Of a DNA stretch of 64,000 nt, positions 56,712-64,000 are shown piece after piece. How positions within the stretch are numbered: position 1 is the first letter of the stretch; every line of letters begins with the position of its first letter. The position numbers and the translations under genes are program-made. The stretch is from Melioribacteraceae bacterium. Lineage in GTDB: Bacteria; Bacteroidota; Ignavibacteria; Ignavibacteriales; Melioribacteraceae. The DNA lies in NCBI GenBank assembly GCA_027030245.1, contig JALVFE010000009.1, forward strand, positions 1-64,000, written 5' to 3'. The notes beneath the pieces are model-generated. The model had not been told where the DNA came from and ran no database searches. It saw only the letters and a program-made list of their open reading frames with translations.

Positions 56712-56886
56712 AACATAAATTTATCGAATAAGAAGCGGATAGGAAAGGGAAATGTTTTGCGGGTAAATGTTAAAAAATGGTTATTATTTTTATAAAAAAA
56801 TTAGCGAAGTTATTTTCAATTTGAATTTCTAAAAAATTTCGCGACCAATTACTTTCTATAGTTTCTTTATATAAAAATTAGCTCCT

Positions 56887-57084
56887 TTATACGCTAATAG
56901 TTTTTATATTATATCTATATGGAATTTGTGCAACGAGTTGTTGCACTTTTTCAAAATCGCATTTGTAGAAATTATAAAATTTCTTCATATAAAAGAGATT
57001 TCTTCTGGAAAATCCTTTTGTTTTTGGAAATTCAGCCTTTAAATCCTTTGATAAATTTTCAACAATAGAATTTCCCCAACCTTT
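56887..57084 (-). pseudogene. Remnant of a second DUF1016 (YhcG-like) gene
   Basis: In a frame shifted relative to the gene at 57059, the sequence reads KGWGNSIVENLSKDLKAEFP, then KTKGFSRRNLFYMKKFYNFY and FEKVQQLVAQIPY, and stops at 56887. This is the middle of a DUF1016 N-terminal domain (the usual form is GWGxKVIexLSxDLkxeFPexKGFSxRNLkYM). The expected continuation after IPW is missing. It overlaps the 3' end of the first DUF1016 fragment by 26 bases. The two pieces look like the remains of tandem homologues joined by deletion. Confidence 0.75.
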
Positions 57085-57511
57085 TAATTCTTTTTAGTTC
57101 TCTTACCGTCCAATTTTCAATTTCTGCTTGTTTCTGATAAAATTTTCTTTCCAAATCATCACTTATTGTCAATAATTCTACATAATGTGACCAACTCAAT
57201 TTGCCAGACACTGTCTGGCGAATTGGATAGTGCAAATAAAAAAGTCGCATATATTGTAAATTGCTACGGCTAAAACCTTTGCCATATTTTGCTGACAAAT
57301 CTTTGTATAAGTTTATTAGCAATTTTTTTCCATATTCTGCTTTTAATTTTCCTTTTTGTTCAAATTCAACTATATTTTTACCAATATTCCAATAAGCATC
57401 AAGCATTTCTACATTAATAGTAGAAATGATTTTGTTTTTCGCTTTGTTATAAACAGAACCAATATTTTCTACCAGTTCATTATATTCCTTATTTTTAATT
57501 AATTCATTCAT
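57059..57511 (-). CDS. DUF1016 N-terminal domain protein, truncated (YhcG-like)
   Basis: The 150-residue product matches the N-terminal half of DUF1016/YhcG proteins: AYWNIGKNIVEFEQKGKLKA, YGKKLLINLYKDLSAKYGKGFSRSNLQYMRLFYLHYP, LSWSHYVELLTISD and ENWTVRELKR. The full family, about 350 residues, carries a PD-(D/E)xK nuclease domain after this point. Here the frame ends in IKRLGKFYC, and a shifted frame carries part of a second homologue. It is probably a pseudogene, though the N-terminal domain alone could still be made. Such genes are common in defence islands and near mobile DNA. Confidence 0.75.
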   Translation of the reverse strand: MNELIKNKEYNELVENIGSVYNKAKNKIISTINVEMLDAYWNIGKNIVEFEQKGKLKAEYGKKLLINLYKDLSAKYGKGFSRSNLQYMRLFYLHYPIRQTVSGKLSWSHYVELLTISDDLERKFYQKQAEIENWTVRELKRIKRLGKFYC

Positions 57512-57598
57512 ATTTCTCCATTTTTGGTATAACGTCTCACATTTTCACAAATAATTTGTATCATAATTTTGATGATTTTATCTTACTTTTATTGGCTA

Positions 57599-57665
57599 TA
57601 ACATTCGTGTGAAAAAGTAGGTGCTGTTTTTTTCGCGCTTTCTTTCATTTTTGCACTTTGCTAGC
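57599..57665. repeat. Imperfect intergenic palindrome, copy E1
   Basis: It begins TAACATTCGTGTGAAAAAGT and contains TCGCGCTTTCTTTCATTT at 57633-57650, which matches E2 at 58489-58506 in 17 of 18 bases. GTGTGAAAAAGT on the left pairs imperfectly with CTTTCATTTTTGCAC on the right, the latter with extra bases. It lies between the DUF1016 gene and the gene at 57684. The form recalls cassette recombination sites; see the findings. Confidence 0.55.
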
Positions 57666-57683
57666 AATTACTTATACACAATG

Positions 57684-58427
57684 TTAACGGTTTGCTATTT
57701 CTTCTATAAGTCTTTTTTTTAAGTCCTTGAATTTCTTTTTTTCCTTTTCTTTAAATTTTTTTAATATACTTTCTAAAAGGCTTCTATCAACAGACCTGTC
57801 ATTAATCAAAGTCTCAATTTCGTGATAATAAAAATAAACGGGTTTAGAATTATCATTAATTATTTCATTAACGAGTTCTGTACTTGATAGTTTCGCCAAT
57901 TCTAATCTTCTTTTTAAGGTTCTTATTTCTTTTTCCTTTTGAGATAGTGTTCTTTTCAATCCTTCAATTTTTTTTTGTAGCAACCTTTTCTCTTTTTCTA
58001 TTTTCTCAACTTTCATTTGATACGAGAATGCAATATCATTTTGAATAAATTCATATGCATTTTTTGATATTGCTCTAATATTTCCATTTGAATCGAAAGG
58101 AATATACCCATTACTTGTATTAATATAAGCCCAATTTGCAATTTCCAAATTTTCATCAAGATTTCTATTTTGAATTTCTTTATATAAAAACTTACCAATA
58201 GTAGCAGAACCACATAATTGAGTAAAACATTGTTCGGCAATGATAAGTCCTTTGAAAATATTTATCAATTCAACATTTGTAAAAGATTTTATATTATTCT
58301 CCTTCCAATTCACAGAACAATTAATGTAATATCCATCATCAATATTTGTTAATATATTTTTACTTTCTTTGTCAAGAGTCAATGACTCCCCTATTTTGAA
58401 TAAAATATCAATATATTTCTTTTCCAT
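57684..58427 (-). CDS. Unknown coiled-coil protein in the defence island
   Basis: The 247-residue product has a globular N-terminal half with several aromatic and Cys residues (DDGYYINCSVNW, EQCFTQLCGSATIGKFLY). A long, highly charged coiled coil follows (EKIEKEKRLLQKKIEGLKRT, then LSQKEKEIRTLKRRLEL). The end is a basic helical tail. No family, signal peptide or membrane segment is seen. AGGAA lies 7 bases before the ATG. It is framed by two palindromes (E1 and E2), as a stand-alone cassette would be. It is AT-rich like the rest of the island. Function unknown. Confidence 0.6.
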   Translation of the reverse strand: MEKKYIDILFKIGESLTLDKESKNILTNIDDGYYINCSVNWKENNIKSFTNVELINIFKGLIIAEQCFTQLCGSATIGKFLYKEIQNRNLDENLEIANWAYINTSNGYIPFDSNGNIRAISKNAYEFIQNDIAFSYQMKVEKIEKEKRLLQKKIEGLKRTLSQKEKEIRTLKRRLELAKLSSTELVNEIINDNSKPVYFYYHEIETLINDRSVDRSLLESILKKFKEKEKKKFKDLKKRLIEEIANR

Positions 58428-58454
58428 TCTTTAATTCCTGTTTTGTAATTATAA

Positions 58455-58523
58455 TAACGGTTATGTGTATGAGTAGTAGCGGGATTTTTCGCGCTTACTT
58501 TCATTTATACGCATTGTTGAACC
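58455..58523. repeat. Imperfect intergenic palindrome, copy E2
   Basis: It runs from TAACGGTTATGTGTATGAGT to CATTTATACGCATTGTTGAACC. The left arm ATGTGTAT..GTAGTAGCG pairs with the right arm CGCGCTTAC..ATACGCAT, in which several bases are extrahelical. On the minus strand the first bases read GTTCAAC, a match to the RYYYAAC box of integron attC sites. The far end does not match the partner box well. It shares its core with E1 and the TAACGGTT...TATGAG...TTTCATTTA frame with E3. Confidence 0.55.
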
Positions 58524-58528
58524 GGCGC

Positions 58529-58927
58529 TTATTTATTATAAATCAAATTCACTTCGGATAATTCTCGCCCAATTTGTTGAATGCCTGCTAATATTTTTTC
58601 GGTCTGGGTTGCAGACGGTTTTTTTCTGCCTTGAATGTATTGTGATAATAAAGTCGGATTCATTCCTATTTTTTCCGCGAGAAATTTCGAATTTAAAACT
58701 TTATAATATTTGAAAAATTGTTGGAAGTCTATTTCAAACTTTATGTTATCATGGGTGATTTTTTTATTGCTGTCTTCAAAAAATAGTTGGACTGCTTCAT
58801 AAACATTATTTATTAATTCGGGTATTGTTTTCCCGGTTGTGAAAATCGGGTATACTTCGGAATATGCCGAAAATCCCGTATCTGTTTTTTCAACTATCAT
58901 CTTTATTTTTTTCCTCATAGTTTTCAT
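58529..58927 (-). CDS. Orphan HicB-like antitoxin with HTH domain
   Basis: The 132-residue product combines a HicB-like partial RNase H fold (KIKMIVEKTDTGFSAYSEVY, then GKTIPELINNVYEAVQLFFED) with a C-terminal helix-turn-helix (NSKFLAEKIGMNPTLLSQYIQGRKKPS). HicB proteins neutralise the mRNA-cutting toxin HicA and repress their own operon. No HicA-like gene is seen on either side, so it is an orphan here, perhaps acting as a regulator. The ATG follows an excellent AGGAGGAAAG site. It lies beside palindrome E2. Confidence 0.82.
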   Translation of the reverse strand: MKTMRKKIKMIVEKTDTGFSAYSEVYPIFTTGKTIPELINNVYEAVQLFFEDSNKKITHDNIKFEIDFQQFFKYYKVLNSKFLAEKIGMNPTLLSQYIQGRKKPSATQTEKILAGIQQIGRELSEVNLIYNK

Positions 58928-59032
58928 GACTCTTTCCTCCTATCTTTTAATTCCGGCGGCTTTGAACGCTTGTTAGCAGAACCGAAGGGCGAGCCACGAA
59001 AGCGGCGAGAGTACCGCACGCTACGGTAAATA

Positions 59033-60538
59033 TCATTTTATTACCTCGAAATCTATTTGTACTTCTTCATCCATTACAATTTTATGTATAACTTCGTTAA
59101 GTCTTTCTTTTAGTTTTTTAGCTGATAAGTCAAGTTGTAAAATACCTGCTTTCTTGTTCCATTTAGTATCCTCTTCTAAGAAATTATTAAGGTTTAAATT
59201 AGTAGGATAATCAACAGAATTATAGTAAAGCTCAGCAATTTCTTTTTGTTTTGATTCAGGGAAGTTTGGGAAAGGAATCATATACCAATATTTTTGAGCT
59301 AAACTTCCTCCATTGCCTCCGACGGCGTAAATATCAATTAATCCTTTTTTTCTCAAATAATCTAAAAAACATTTCACAAAAATTGAGATTGTTAAATCTC
59401 CTTCTTGAAGATTTAAAGTCATTCCGTGAATATTCGTTATCGTCCTCGTTAGCTCCTTAGTTACAACAATTGAACGCCCTTTCTCAAAACCTTCTGCACC
59501 AAAAACAATATCCCCTTTTTTTAATGTTTTTAATTTATTTTTATTTCCCAAAAATTCATACTTAATTATAGTACCATAGTAAGATAAATTCTTAGGCAAT
59601 ATTAAAGTATAGAATCCATTTTTTCTAGCTTTCGAATAAATACTTTTACCAATCGCTGAAACTTGAAGGTTTTGTCCTCTTGAGATATCAAATCCTAAAT
59701 CATATATGTTTTTAACCCCATGAATATAATTTTTTATAAGAAATTCTTCTTTCTTAAAATAGGTATCATAAATAGTAGCATTTATTCTTGATAAACTTTT
59801 TAGCTCTTTTAGAGTAGGTCTTTTATACTCAAATTCACTTGGCTTTTGATTTTCTAAAAGTTCTTTTTCTATCTTTTCAAGAATTAATTTATGCTTTTTT
59901 CTGATTTCTTTTTCTTTGTTTATTATTGCTTTTGTTAAAAATTCGATATAGTTTATTATATTATTTGAGTTTTCTTGATTTGGAAATGGAATTAAGCAAT
60001 CTAAAAATAATGTTTTTGCATGTCTTATAGTAGCACCACGAGAAACTAAAAAATTTAATTGTGTTTTAAAGAAATCATTCTTTATAAATGCCAATAAATA
60101 ATATTTCCAATTAGAAACAAGTAACCTATAAATACCGCCTGAAGGCATATAAGTAGGTAAATCTTTATCTAAGATTACGACTTCTCCTATATTAGAATCT
60201 TTAGATATTAAAATATCTCCTTCTTTTAAATTGTAATTCTTAAAACTTTGAGGTAATATCGGGACAATACTTTCTCTATCATAATTTGGTAAAAAAGATG
60301 TTGGTTGTAAAGCTTTTGTTCTAATAAAGAAATATTTTGAGTTATAAATATATGATTTTGAACCAACTTCAAATCCTTTATCTTTTGGTTTCAACGCTCT
60401 GTCTAATAAATCCTTAACTTTCTTAACATTTTGATTCTTAATCTCTACACTTTTAAACAATGAAGGAGATAACGCAAACCCTTTATTTTCAATTTCATTT
60501 ATATTCAAAGTTTTTGGAACAACAACATACGATGCCAT
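59033..60538 (-). CDS. Restriction-modification specificity subunit (HsdS-like)
   Basis: The 501-residue product has two target-recognition regions separated by helical spacers. The first half ends with LFLDCLIPFPNQENSNNIINYI and a coiled coil (LTKAIINKEKEIRKKHKLIL). The second half ends with KYWYMIPFPNFPESKQKEIAEL. The GDILISKDSNIGEVVI and GDIVFGAEGFEKGRSIVV strands are typical of type I S subunits. It would guide the fused nuclease-methyltransferase to a split DNA site. It begins 1 base after the methyltransferase stop (TAACATG), so the two are coupled. Confidence 0.88.
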   Translation of the reverse strand: MASYVVVPKTLNINEIENKGFALSPSLFKSVEIKNQNVKKVKDLLDRALKPKDKGFEVGSKSYIYNSKYFFIRTKALQPTSFLPNYDRESIVPILPQSFKNYNLKEGDILISKDSNIGEVVILDKDLPTYMPSGGIYRLLVSNWKYYLLAFIKNDFFKTQLNFLVSRGATIRHAKTLFLDCLIPFPNQENSNNIINYIEFLTKAIINKEKEIRKKHKLILEKIEKELLENQKPSEFEYKRPTLKELKSLSRINATIYDTYFKKEEFLIKNYIHGVKNIYDLGFDISRGQNLQVSAIGKSIYSKARKNGFYTLILPKNLSYYGTIIKYEFLGNKNKLKTLKKGDIVFGAEGFEKGRSIVVTKELTRTITNIHGMTLNLQEGDLTISIFVKCFLDYLRKKGLIDIYAVGGNGGSLAQKYWYMIPFPNFPESKQKEIAELYYNSVDYPTNLNLNNFLEEDTKWNKKAGILQLDLSAKKLKERLNEVIHKIVMDEEVQIDFEVIK

Positions 60539-60539
60539 G

Positions 60540-62666
60540 TTACTTCTCCTTTAAGAATAAATCTTTCAATGTTTCCTCTTGAGTAAAAGCCCATTCCCTA
60601 AATTCCTTAATGGTTTGTGTAAACTCTTCATCTAAAACAGGCCTTCCTTCCTCATCTTGCACAACCTCAAAAGTTTCTTCATCTATTTTGTAAATTGGCT
60701 CAAAGTATTTTACTCTCTTTTTTGTTTTTACTTCATAACCTACTTTTTGAATATCTTTAATAAAGACCTCATAATTTTGCTCTTTTAATCTCTTTAGTTC
60801 CCTAGGTTTTGGTTTGTAAGCAATTATCAAAGTCGTATTGACTCCAGTATCTGCAAAAACATTTGCAGGTAAATCAAACAAAGCAACAATCCTCATTTTA
60901 GCTATTAACCATTTTCTTGCTTTTTCCCATCTGTCTATAGAAGCAATAGAATTGGATAAAACGATCCCCAATCTTCCATTTTCTTTTAAGATTCTATATG
61001 CATTCTCCAAAAAGACAAGTCCCAAATCTATCCAATTTCCGGCTCTTGCAATATGCCATAACTCATAAAGCTCAGCTAATTTCTTTTCTTCTAATGTTTT
61101 AGGTTCCCACTTCCTATCTTCTCCAAAAGGAGGGTTTGTTAATACAACATCAAACTTCATTAACTTAGTATCGTCTCTCCAATTATCCCAATTTCCTTTA
61201 TTATGTAAATCTGGAATCAGTTCCACTGGCTCATTTATTATAGTTATTTTATGGGTTATTGAACCTTTATCTGGAATATGATATAACTTAGCATTTCCGT
61301 CTCCATTAAGAAGCATATTCAACTGAGCAAGCATAATCATTTGTTCATCATTATCAACTCCATAAATGTTATTATCATCCAGTTTACTATTTGAATTCAC
61401 ATAAGAAACAGATAAAAAGTCTGCAATTCCTGCAGTAGGATCAATTACAGTTTCCCCGTTTCTTGGATTTACAATTTCAACTAAAAAATCAATTAAAGGC
61501 AAAGGCGTGACAAATTGTCCTTTTTGTTCTTTTGAAAAGGCACTTGCAAAACGATAAAATATTAATTGGTACAAATCGGTTTTATGTGATTTTACAAAAG
61601 AGAAATCTTGAAATTGCTTTACGGTTTTTACTAATACTTTTACATGTGCATTATTTCTAAGATTTATTTTTTGTTCTTTTAAAATTGTATAGTATGTGCT
61701 TTGTGCATCGTCAAATAGTTGCTGTATTCTTTTTAGGAAAGGTTCAATTCTTTTATCATTTAAATTAGAGTAATTAGCTTCTTCGTTTGTTATATAGAAT
61801 TTTAATTTTTCTCTATTATTTTTTTCATTTCTTTTTTCATCAAATATCTTTAAAGCAAGAATCTGTATAAGTAACTCATAACCATTTTGATCAACCATGC
61901 TTACTTTGTCCATCGTTCTCAAAATATTAGACATTGCATCATTAAGTTGGGTAGAATGAACGCCAGAAATCTTCCCGAGATCATCTATACTTCGATTAGT
62001 TCTATTTAGTTCTAATGGTTTATTGACTTGATTAATAAGCTCTTCAAACGAAGGAATATTGTAATATGGATCAGTTAAATGTAATGATAAATCTTTAGTT
62101 GCACTTTTTTCAGCTTTTTGATTATAAGATTCATCATATCTCAGTATTTTACCATTCTTATTTTGAAAAATATACAGTCTTTCTGTATCATATAAATACC
62201 CTATACAGAAGTCGGCTTCAGACTCTTTCATATATGCTTTCAATTGTTGATTAAAAACAGTTTCAATATCTTTACTATCTTCTTTCTTGAATTCTATTAC
62301 TCCGACTAAATTTTTTCTTAACCAATCTAAATCGTCCTGTTTTCTTTCGTTCCAAAATCTTTTGTATTTTTCAAACCAATCTTTATCGTCGAAAATTGCT
62401 CCATCTAATTTGATTGGTATAGAATTTTTATTTCCTTTAGGAAGATGAATTTCACAACCTAAATAATCTTTAGAGTATAACCCAGCATTAACTAATGCAT
62501 AAAAGAATTGCCACTTATAATATTCTTCATTTGGTTCTCCTTTTGAATTTTTAATAGAGAATTCTTTATCAAGCTCAAAATGAACAGGTATAAATGATTT
62601 GAACTTGTCTTTTGCAGAATATTTTCTATTGAACTTGTTTTTTTGTTCTAAGAATGTTCCATTCAT
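60540..62666 (-). CDS. Restriction nuclease-methyltransferase fusion (N6-adenine, type I-like core)
   Basis: The 708-residue product has an HsdR-N-like PD-(D/E)xK region at about 45-170, with Asp88 (KLDGAIFD) and Glu125/Lys127 (VIEFKKE). A helical linker follows, then a HsdM-type N6-adenine methyltransferase with QFVTP at 384-388, motif I as DPTAGIADFL (409-418) and NPPF at 511-514. Motif I departs from the usual DPACGTGGFL. A nuclease on the methyltransferase with a separate S subunit is the layout of BcgI-type (IIB/IIG) systems, which need no HsdR. None is present here. GGTGAAG precedes the ATG. Confidence 0.85.
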   Translation of the reverse strand: MNGTFLEQKNKFNRKYSAKDKFKSFIPVHFELDKEFSIKNSKGEPNEEYYKWQFFYALVNAGLYSKDYLGCEIHLPKGNKNSIPIKLDGAIFDDKDWFEKYKRFWNERKQDDLDWLRKNLVGVIEFKKEDSKDIETVFNQQLKAYMKESEADFCIGYLYDTERLYIFQNKNGKILRYDESYNQKAEKSATKDLSLHLTDPYYNIPSFEELINQVNKPLELNRTNRSIDDLGKISGVHSTQLNDAMSNILRTMDKVSMVDQNGYELLIQILALKIFDEKRNEKNNREKLKFYITNEEANYSNLNDKRIEPFLKRIQQLFDDAQSTYYTILKEQKINLRNNAHVKVLVKTVKQFQDFSFVKSHKTDLYQLIFYRFASAFSKEQKGQFVTPLPLIDFLVEIVNPRNGETVIDPTAGIADFLSVSYVNSNSKLDDNNIYGVDNDEQMIMLAQLNMLLNGDGNAKLYHIPDKGSITHKITIINEPVELIPDLHNKGNWDNWRDDTKLMKFDVVLTNPPFGEDRKWEPKTLEEKKLAELYELWHIARAGNWIDLGLVFLENAYRILKENGRLGIVLSNSIASIDRWEKARKWLIAKMRIVALFDLPANVFADTGVNTTLIIAYKPKPRELKRLKEQNYEVFIKDIQKVGYEVKTKKRVKYFEPIYKIDEETFEVVQDEEGRPVLDEEFTQTIKEFREWAFTQEETLKDLFLKEK

Positions 62667-62717
62667 TTTTCTTCACCTTTTTCTTGTTGTATTATACACG
62701 GTGTGCGGAATTTCTGC

Positions 62718-62775
62718 TAACGGTTCCGGCTATGAGCATGCGGGTTTTATTGCATTTCATTTACAAATCACTATG
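62718..62775. repeat. Imperfect intergenic palindrome, copy E3
   Basis: It begins TAACGGTTCCGGCTATGAGC and continues GCGGGTTTTATTGCATTTCATTTACA. The order TAACGGTT, TATGAG, GCGGG, TTTCATTTA is the same as in E2, with a shorter right arm. It sits between the nuclease-methyltransferase and the HerA-type ATPase gene. It is the most diverged of the three copies. Confidence 0.45.
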
Positions 62776-62779
62776 TTTT

Positions 62780-64000
62780 TTATTTATACTTATTATTTTC
62801 AATTCTATCATTTTCACCTGCTTTGCTTATAGCCTTTGTTGAGCGTTCGTTATTATCTTCTTTTGGTTTATCTTCTGGTTCCTTAATTTCAGGAACTTCA
62901 AAAATCATCGGAACACTTGATTTTAAAGCTTTTCCAGCGGCTATTGCTTGTTTAAATTTTAAGTTAGGTAATACTTTTGATATTTCTTGACCAAAATAAT
63001 TTGCCAAGAAATCACTACTCGTTTTGTCAAATTCTTGAAAAGAAATCACTGTGTTGCATTGCGTTAAAATTGTTTTAGAAACATTTGCTGTTCTTTGGGC
63101 GATTACTAATAAACCTACATTATATTTTCTACCTTGTAATGCTATTTGAGCAATACTGTTTAGCAATGGTTGTGAAATTTTATCTGAAACACCAGAAAAA
63201 TTCCATTCTGGTATTACTGTATGTGCTTCTTCTAGAACAATACATATCCGCTTTCCAAAATTTTTTTCTGTTTTTGCAATATGAAATAAAATTCTGAAAA
63301 ATGTTTTTGTATAAGTAAGAACGCCAGATGTATTTGCAACTTCTGGTAATTCAAATATAGAAATACTATTATTACCGTTTAAAAATGTTTTTATTTCTTG
63401 ATAGATACTCTTTGAAACTTCTTCCTTTAATTTTTTGGATTCATCATTATCTCTATTGAAATTGTTCCCAATTATGGTTTCTATATCATCGATTTTTTTA
63501 AAAAGACCTTTTGCTGTTTCTTCATTTATTGTTTTTACAGGATTTATATCTGAAAATTTGTTTAGATATTCCCCGGTAAAATCAATACAAATAACTTTTG
63601 TGTTTTCATCTTTTAGATATTGGCGAATTAGATTACGTGAAAAAATTGATTTTCCAGTTCCAGTTACGCCAATCACGGCAAGGTGGTGAGAAAGAGCAGT
63701 ATCTTTGTTAATAATTATTGGATAATTAGTATTTGGGATTTTTCCAATTATATATTCATTGTCTTTAATTTTTGGCTCATCAATTTTAGAAGCAATATAT
63801 ACGGGTGTATTAATTGAAGGAACCCAGCCAAATTGTTCAAATTGAAATTTTTCATTGTTCCAAGTTCCTAATTGAATAGCTTCACCGATAATTAAACCGG
63901 TTTGATTTTTTTGTTCTAATGTTTCAATTTTTGTTACACCCTCAATAATTTGATACAATACTTTTATTCCTTGAATATTTACTTCCAATAATTGACCTTC
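62780..64000 (-). CDS. HerA-type ATPase (DUF87), 5'-partial
   Basis: The frame is open to base 64000, so the N-terminus lies outside the window. A small beta-barrel domain (about the first 90 residues seen) precedes the ATPase. Counting from the TTG codon at 63988, Walker A is GVTGTGKS at 107-114, Walker B is ICIVLEEAH at 248-256, and the arginine-finger region is GRKYNVGLLVIAQR. HerA hexamers move along DNA; with NurA they resect ends, and with SIR2, DUF4297 or other nucleases they form phage-defence complexes. The effector gene would be expected upstream, beyond the edge. The C-terminal tail is charged and low-complexity. Confidence 0.85.
   Translation of the reverse strand, partial: EGQLLEVNIQGIKVLYQIIEGVTKIETLEQKNQTGLIIGEAIQLGTWNNEKFQFEQFGWVPSINTPVYIASKIDEPKIKDNEYIIGKIPNTNYPIIINKDTALSHHLAVIGVTGTGKSIFSRNLIRQYLKDENTKVICIDFTGEYLNKFSDINPVKTINEETAKGLFKKIDDIETIIGNNFNRDNDESKKLKEEVSKSIYQEIKTFLNGNNSISIFELPEVANTSGVLTYTKTFFRILFHIAKTEKNFGKRICIVLEEAHTVIPEWNFSGVSDKISQPLLNSIAQIALQGRKYNVGLLVIAQRTANVSKTILTQCNTVISFQEFDKTSSDFLANYFGQEISKVLPNLKFKQAIAAGKALKSSVPMIFEVPEIKEPEDKPKEDNNERSTKAISKAGENDRIENNKYK

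Follow-up and report, generated by a model that had tools for sequence, protein, structure and literature searches.

The palindromes between the accessory genes of this Melioribacteraceae contig are probably attC-like cassette sites, and the window (the whole analysed stretch of 64,000 nucleotides, from contig C9 of the genome) would carry most of an orphan array of an integron class whose recombinase lacks the IntI-specific patch. What can be read from the sequences themselves is a site family, covariation of its arms, an array order, complementarity of cassette ends, an insertion polymorphism and the adjacency of a recombinase in relatives. The initial annotation had proposed both attC-like sites and a defence-type cargo. 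The former is supported by arm covariation, arrays elsewhere, the integron end rule and insertion polymorphism, and the latter by Pfam and PADLOC matches (Table 1).

Three related palindromes, E1, E2 and E3, had been described at the outset. E1 and E2 are real as claimed, with 21 of 22 bases common to both (TTTTTCGCGCTT[T/A]CTTTCATTT), and they are confirmed as non-random, since the window contains 2 matches to this core against 0.04 expected from shuffling. A third copy of the core is absent from the 3.8-Mb genome in a search with up to 3 mismatches. E2 folds well on the opposite strand from the genes (-13.5 with DNA parameters, z -5.2), while the fold of E1 is moderate (-9.6, z -2.3). E3 is a relative in sequence, but it is degenerate and folds no better than shuffled sequence (z about 0), and its covariance-model score of 53 bits is that of a member of the training set. 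The palindromes had been placed correctly, but only their inner part had been recognised and the true sites are longer. Every site falls into a gap that separates minus-strand genes, in agreement with the initial annotation, which had missed a fourth site, E4. A core lying inside genes, a lack of conserved folding or genes that never vary had been named as findings against cassette sites; the core has no recurrence within genes of its own genome, the fold is conserved, and congeners differ in genes while the flanks stay constant. We also searched the exact core in GTDB contigs, and the inspected contexts of the 17 matches were apparently coding or unrelated DNA without a hairpin site. In viral contigs the exact core had no match, and a looser version gave one chance match, which was terminator-like.

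Table 1. Cassette sites and genes of the array, with positions in the window
Feature	Position	Strand	Evidence or boxes
DUF1016 (YhcG-type nuclease) N-terminal fragment, truncated	57059..57511	-	Pfam PF17761 1.1e-41; PADLOC PDC-S02
E1, full attC-like site, 94 bp	57596..57689 (about)	-	R'' CGTTAAC, R' GTTATAG
Protein with coiled coil	57684..58427	-	no confident family (Pfam, PADLOC, NCBIfam)
E2, attC-like site, 71 bp	58452..58522 (about)	-	R'' GTTCAAC, R' GTTATTA; left L-type arm deleted
HicB-like protein with HTH	58529..58927	-	HTH_3 match weak, below cut-off
E4, hairpin-less remnant site	58958..58981 (about)	-	TTCTGCTAAC AAGC GTTCAAAGCC; end of HsdM-HsdS cassette
Type I specificity (HsdS-like) protein	59033..60538	-	Methylase_S 1.7e-06; PADLOC Specificity_I
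N6 adenine methylase (HsdM-like)	60540..62666	-	N6_Mtase 7.6e-32; PADLOC mad2, MTase_I
E3, degenerate cassette site	62712..62781	-	R' GTTAGCAGAA, start of HsdM-HsdS cassette
HerA-like ATPase, first gene of the array	62780..64000, on to C9:64942	-	DUF87/HerA 1e-14; PADLOC HerA

E1 and E2 as first described are parts of a larger site, a long imperfect hairpin with a putative role in recombination, which reads YTAACATTGTGTATAAGTAATGGCGGGC...loop...CCCGCCACTRCTCATACACATAACCGTTR in gene direction with the ends YTAAC...CCGTTR, and which is 71-94 bp long here and usually about 90-135 bp elsewhere. The left half of E1 (TAACATTGTGTATAAGTAAT) is perfect and identical to sites of other arrays, and the right half of E2 (ACTACTCATACACATAACCGTTA) is perfect and identical to the site family, so that two independent stretches, one per site, link E1 and E2 to the family. 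Unpaired bases are present in the folds of both, and the constant marks across the family are two A.C mismatches. E1 overlaps the stop codon of the coiled-coil gene, while E2 and the stop codon of the HicB-like gene are 7 nt apart. In E4 the outer boxes are separated by 4 nt only. Its box TTCTGCTAAC lies between the HsdS-like and HicB-like genes (58928-59032) and complements GTTAGCAGAA, which follows E3, in every base (10/10 from E3 to E4); by this complementarity E4 was identified and the HsdM-HsdS pair recognised as one cassette. From E2 to E1 such a cassette-end match is absent, and this break of the end rule counts against the cassette reading, as does the degeneracy of E3 and E4.

To describe the family, we used a covariance model built from E1-E3 and one relative, whose E-values are rough. 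It had matches in 25 of 79 same-family genomes (E up to 0.1), often in same-strand clusters, and the same site was found in arrays between same-direction genes in the genome itself (contigs C3 and C30), in relatives and in a complete Persicobacter plasmid. In other families of the phylum, the right-half pattern had 16 matches, several of which recur unchanged in different genomes, against 9 in the control, and it occurs in at least 120 viral contigs, chance matches included. Both variable arms of the site covary far beyond chance. With sites taken by exact anchors and no pairing filter, Watson-Crick pairing in stem B reaches 113 of 130 (70.1, sd 4.5, with shuffled partners), and pairing in stem A reaches 68 of 78 (30.6, sd 4.5).

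Pairing partly guided the choice of sites for the counts of mismatches, gene direction and viral polarity that follow. Of 34 sites in a wider set, partly picked for pairing, 33 retain both internal A.C mismatches. They become T.G on the complementary strand, so that one strand folds better, and a preferred strand was found in 16 of 23 sites from genomes and in 57 of 61 from viral contigs. Gene and site are co-directional in 17 of 18 genome cases, with the gene stop at a median of 9 nt upstream of the site. The viral contigs (L169-L288) carry the same sites between phage genes; a blastn search of a viral-type site against named phages gave nothing beyond chance. In 37 of 50 viral cases the site has a polarity opposite to both adjoining genes, which counts against the simple model, as this model leaves the polarity unexplained.

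The block of defence-type genes is an insertion missing from three congeners. The flanking genes, encoding an NHL-type lipoprotein and endonuclease III, are adjacent there (101-121 bp apart), and about 8.5 kb lie between them at the same locus in the present genome. The window holds most of the array. Its head, which lies outside the window at about C9:64970-65008, has a palindrome like the attI-like sites. A CALIN is an attC cluster lacking an integrase (IntegronFinder, PMC9024848), and under the rule of at least 2 sites within 4 kb with no integrase beside them, the present array is one, E1, E2 and E4 lying within 1.4 kb. No recombinase was found among the ORFs of the block and its flanks, and none of the genome's tyrosine recombinases is on C9. 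The claim that an integrase is missing therefore stands for the surroundings of the array but not for the genome, which encodes two intact IntI elsewhere (C4:46228-47217 and C37:28780-29736), besides one internally deleted copy (C22:2936-3484). On C4 and C22, intI is followed past its 3' end by an attI-like sequence and genes resembling cassettes.

Concerning the cargo, the array tail (56880-57511) contains a tandem pair of partial DUF1016 (YhcG-type) N-terminal regions. The HerA-like ATPase, methylase and specificity protein (59033-64000) weakly match mad8, mad2 and mad5 of the MADS system, with matches far under the NCBIfam cut-offs for MAD2 and MAD5. Cassettes in two other contigs of the genome (C3:1925-5288 and C30:129346-131028) have PADLOC matches to AbiEi, SoFic, PDC-S09 (a candidate nucleotidyltransferase defence family) and HEC-06, indicating that defence-type cargo is common. 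Besides, C30 contains an attI-like site which obeys the end rule and has no recombinase.

In integrons, the exchange point leaves the 5' end of a cassette at the upstream site, and the outer box of the cassette's own site is the complement of this end. The cassettes of the present family obey this rule, in that their start is complementary to the outer box of their own site. Across 29 consecutive site pairs, whose sites were partly chosen by pairing, 114 of 203 positions are complementary against 80.2 (sd 6.3), and 0 of 5000 shuffles were as high; same-site and wrong-way pairs, taken as controls, score lower. In plasmid pPP2 (Persicobacter psychrovividus, NZ_AP025294.1), 20 of 31 genes of one stretch reach at least 9/10 (GTT and the next 7 bases against the outer end of the own site), while shuffling gave a mean of 1.6 and a maximum of 5, and in an adjoining stretch the complementarity is 126 against 93.7 (sd 5.3). 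CCGTTG occurs 142 times on one strand of pPP2 and 71 times on the other, with 90 and 87 in controls, and this one-strand enrichment is a hint only.

The initial annotation had suggested looking for an IntI-type or other tyrosine recombinase. A candidate cognate enzyme was indeed found in relatives, but it is likely not IntI itself. It is a tyrosine recombinase of 270-300 aa with PF13495 and PF00589, present in 21 of 79 genomes, and 6 sites lie in 167 kb near its genes while reversed-sequence controls gave none. From GLR to HxxR, the array-linked recombinase has 91 residues versus 133 in IntI, and a 42-residue patch, regarded as a defining part of integron integrases, is missing; two distant homologues deviate with spans of 92 and 153, the latter possibly counted from another GLR. 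Its best NCBIfam match is NF040815 (site-specific tyrosine recombinase/integron integrase, XerA type; 195-233 bits, cut-off 220), a name which also covers archaeal dimer-resolution enzymes and whose definition holds no cassette array. Against the IntI model TIGR02249 it reaches 172-216 bits, under the cut-off of 265, with the first part of the model matched. In the tree, IntI form one clade, around which the patch-less proteins are placed, closer to it than to the genome's two Xer proteins, with the branching among the patch-less proteins not fully resolved.

The patch-less recombinase stands at array heads in the relatives G263, G302, G199 and G313, and in the attI-like gap of these four genomes, the bases behind GTT match 9-10/10 with the outer box of the first site (windows read by eye). 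Several recombinase copies are located at contig ends. In pPP2, a recombinase of the patch-less type, unannotated, spans the record start and heads a very large array, in which about 60 kb of small same-direction cassette genes follow (342000-404592 and across the record start). Related recombinases are also encoded by Chryseobacterium and Flagellimonas plasmids. Among Acinetobacter plasmids, 48 records have a recombinase that shares 51% identity with the Persicobacter enzyme across two thirds of its length, for instance NZ_CP104735.1 (1489-2220), with annotation as TnpF or tyrosine-type recombinase. A close copy of the patch-less recombinase was not found in the present genome, and this counts against our main reading, together with the intact IntI encoded there.

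The intact IntI speak for another explanation, in which the palindromes belong to canonical IntI integrons as ordinary attC sites and the array is a common CALIN moved in trans by the genome's own IntI. The high variability of attC sequences speaks for it as well, and in a study on phage CALINs (PMC9892861), one Bacteroidota-phage site, from Polaribacter phage P12002L, is reported as recombined by IntI1; sites with similar ends occur in that phage, maybe not the same one. Against this, no site of the present family was found in 353 kb around IntI genes. IntI is present in 33 of 79 genomes of the family, and the IntI array of G113 has an attC of another kind, about 230 bp long, while G263 is rich in the present sites and has no IntI at 1e-60. 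Moreover, it is another recombinase that heads such arrays. We therefore consider the movement by IntI unlikely. The G113 locus (C1:1507444-1522000; L068, L069) is a textbook IntI integron with many cassettes.

Two explanations without any cassette were also considered. Hairpins that directly follow stop codons and are conserved might act at the RNA level, as terminators or regulatory elements of transcripts; yet both orientations relative to genes occur, an Rfam search of the sites gave no family match of use, and the complementarity of cassette ends between adjoining sites has no role in such elements, whose nature the end rule contradicts, which makes this reading highly improbable. Repeated intergenic palindromes could likewise be small transposon-like repeats (MITE or REP) dispersed between genes, and a gene similar to REP-type (IS200-like) transposases, recognised by eye, lies beside a second attI-like palindrome (C30:133319-133885). 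However, the core is not dispersed in the genome, the sites form same-direction arrays, the matching ends bound gene plus site rather than the palindrome, and empty sites missing only the palindrome, with target duplications, were not seen, so there is very little room for dispersed repeats.

Returning to the attC-like sites and a patch-less enzyme, the cassettes would move as follows. The predicted catalyst is a relative of IntI without the IntI-specific patch, which in other genomes is encoded next to a small attI-like site where the array begins, and which was presumably lost from the locus in the window. This tyrosine recombinase would cut at GTT, the exact cut point being our deduction; the cassette would then leave and enter as a circle, and its 5' end would stay beside the upstream site. 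The IntI-specific patch corresponds to the I2 region. IntI is described as requiring the I2 helix for cassette capture, with I2 docking extrahelical bases of the single-stranded attC, and the I2 domain is described as unknown in other proteins (PMC7790495). This requirement counts against cassette capture by a patch-less enzyme. An enzyme without I2 may use a double-stranded form of the site, or may read the fixed mismatches in another way.

Compared with known systems, the arrays resemble integron arrays and CALINs in having genes of one direction with a hairpin site, marked by AAC/GTT boxes, behind each, in cassette ends complementary to the own site, in the attI-like site heading the arrays of relatives, in accessory and defence cargo, and in the existence of orphan arrays without integrase. 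They differ in that the sites here belong to a conserved family with two fixed A.C mismatches, the attI-like site is a partial palindrome, and the IntI patch is missing from the linked recombinase. Phage CALINs (PMC9892861) are similar too, as attC-like sites there separate phage genes, those for DNA methyltransferases among them, but the available text of that study treats them as IntI sites and names neither the present family nor a patch-less recombinase. With IntegronFinder 2.0, integrons that are complete were reported from Chlorobi, Ignavibacteriae and a single Salinibacter of the group (PMC9024848), archaeal IntI retain the patch (PMC9668308), and a survey of tyrosine recombinases describes an integron-like subgroup with incomplete conservation of the insertion (PMC8138268). 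In the open-access literature, preprints aside, we found no paper linking patch-less enzymes to cassette arrays, and priority is accordingly not firm.

In conclusion, we lean towards the view that Bacteroidota, and some linked plasmids and viruses, have a second class of integrons, in which the cassette sites are hairpins, attI is in part a palindrome and the integrase is related to IntI but has no I2. If this is true, cassette capture predates I2 or arose without it, and the origin of integrons could be tested directly on IntI relatives that head real arrays without I2. Such a class would also account for the accessory and defence arrays of Bacteroidota left integrase-less by searches demanding a patch-bearing IntI, and would offer a route of gene exchange among chromosomes, plasmids and phages.
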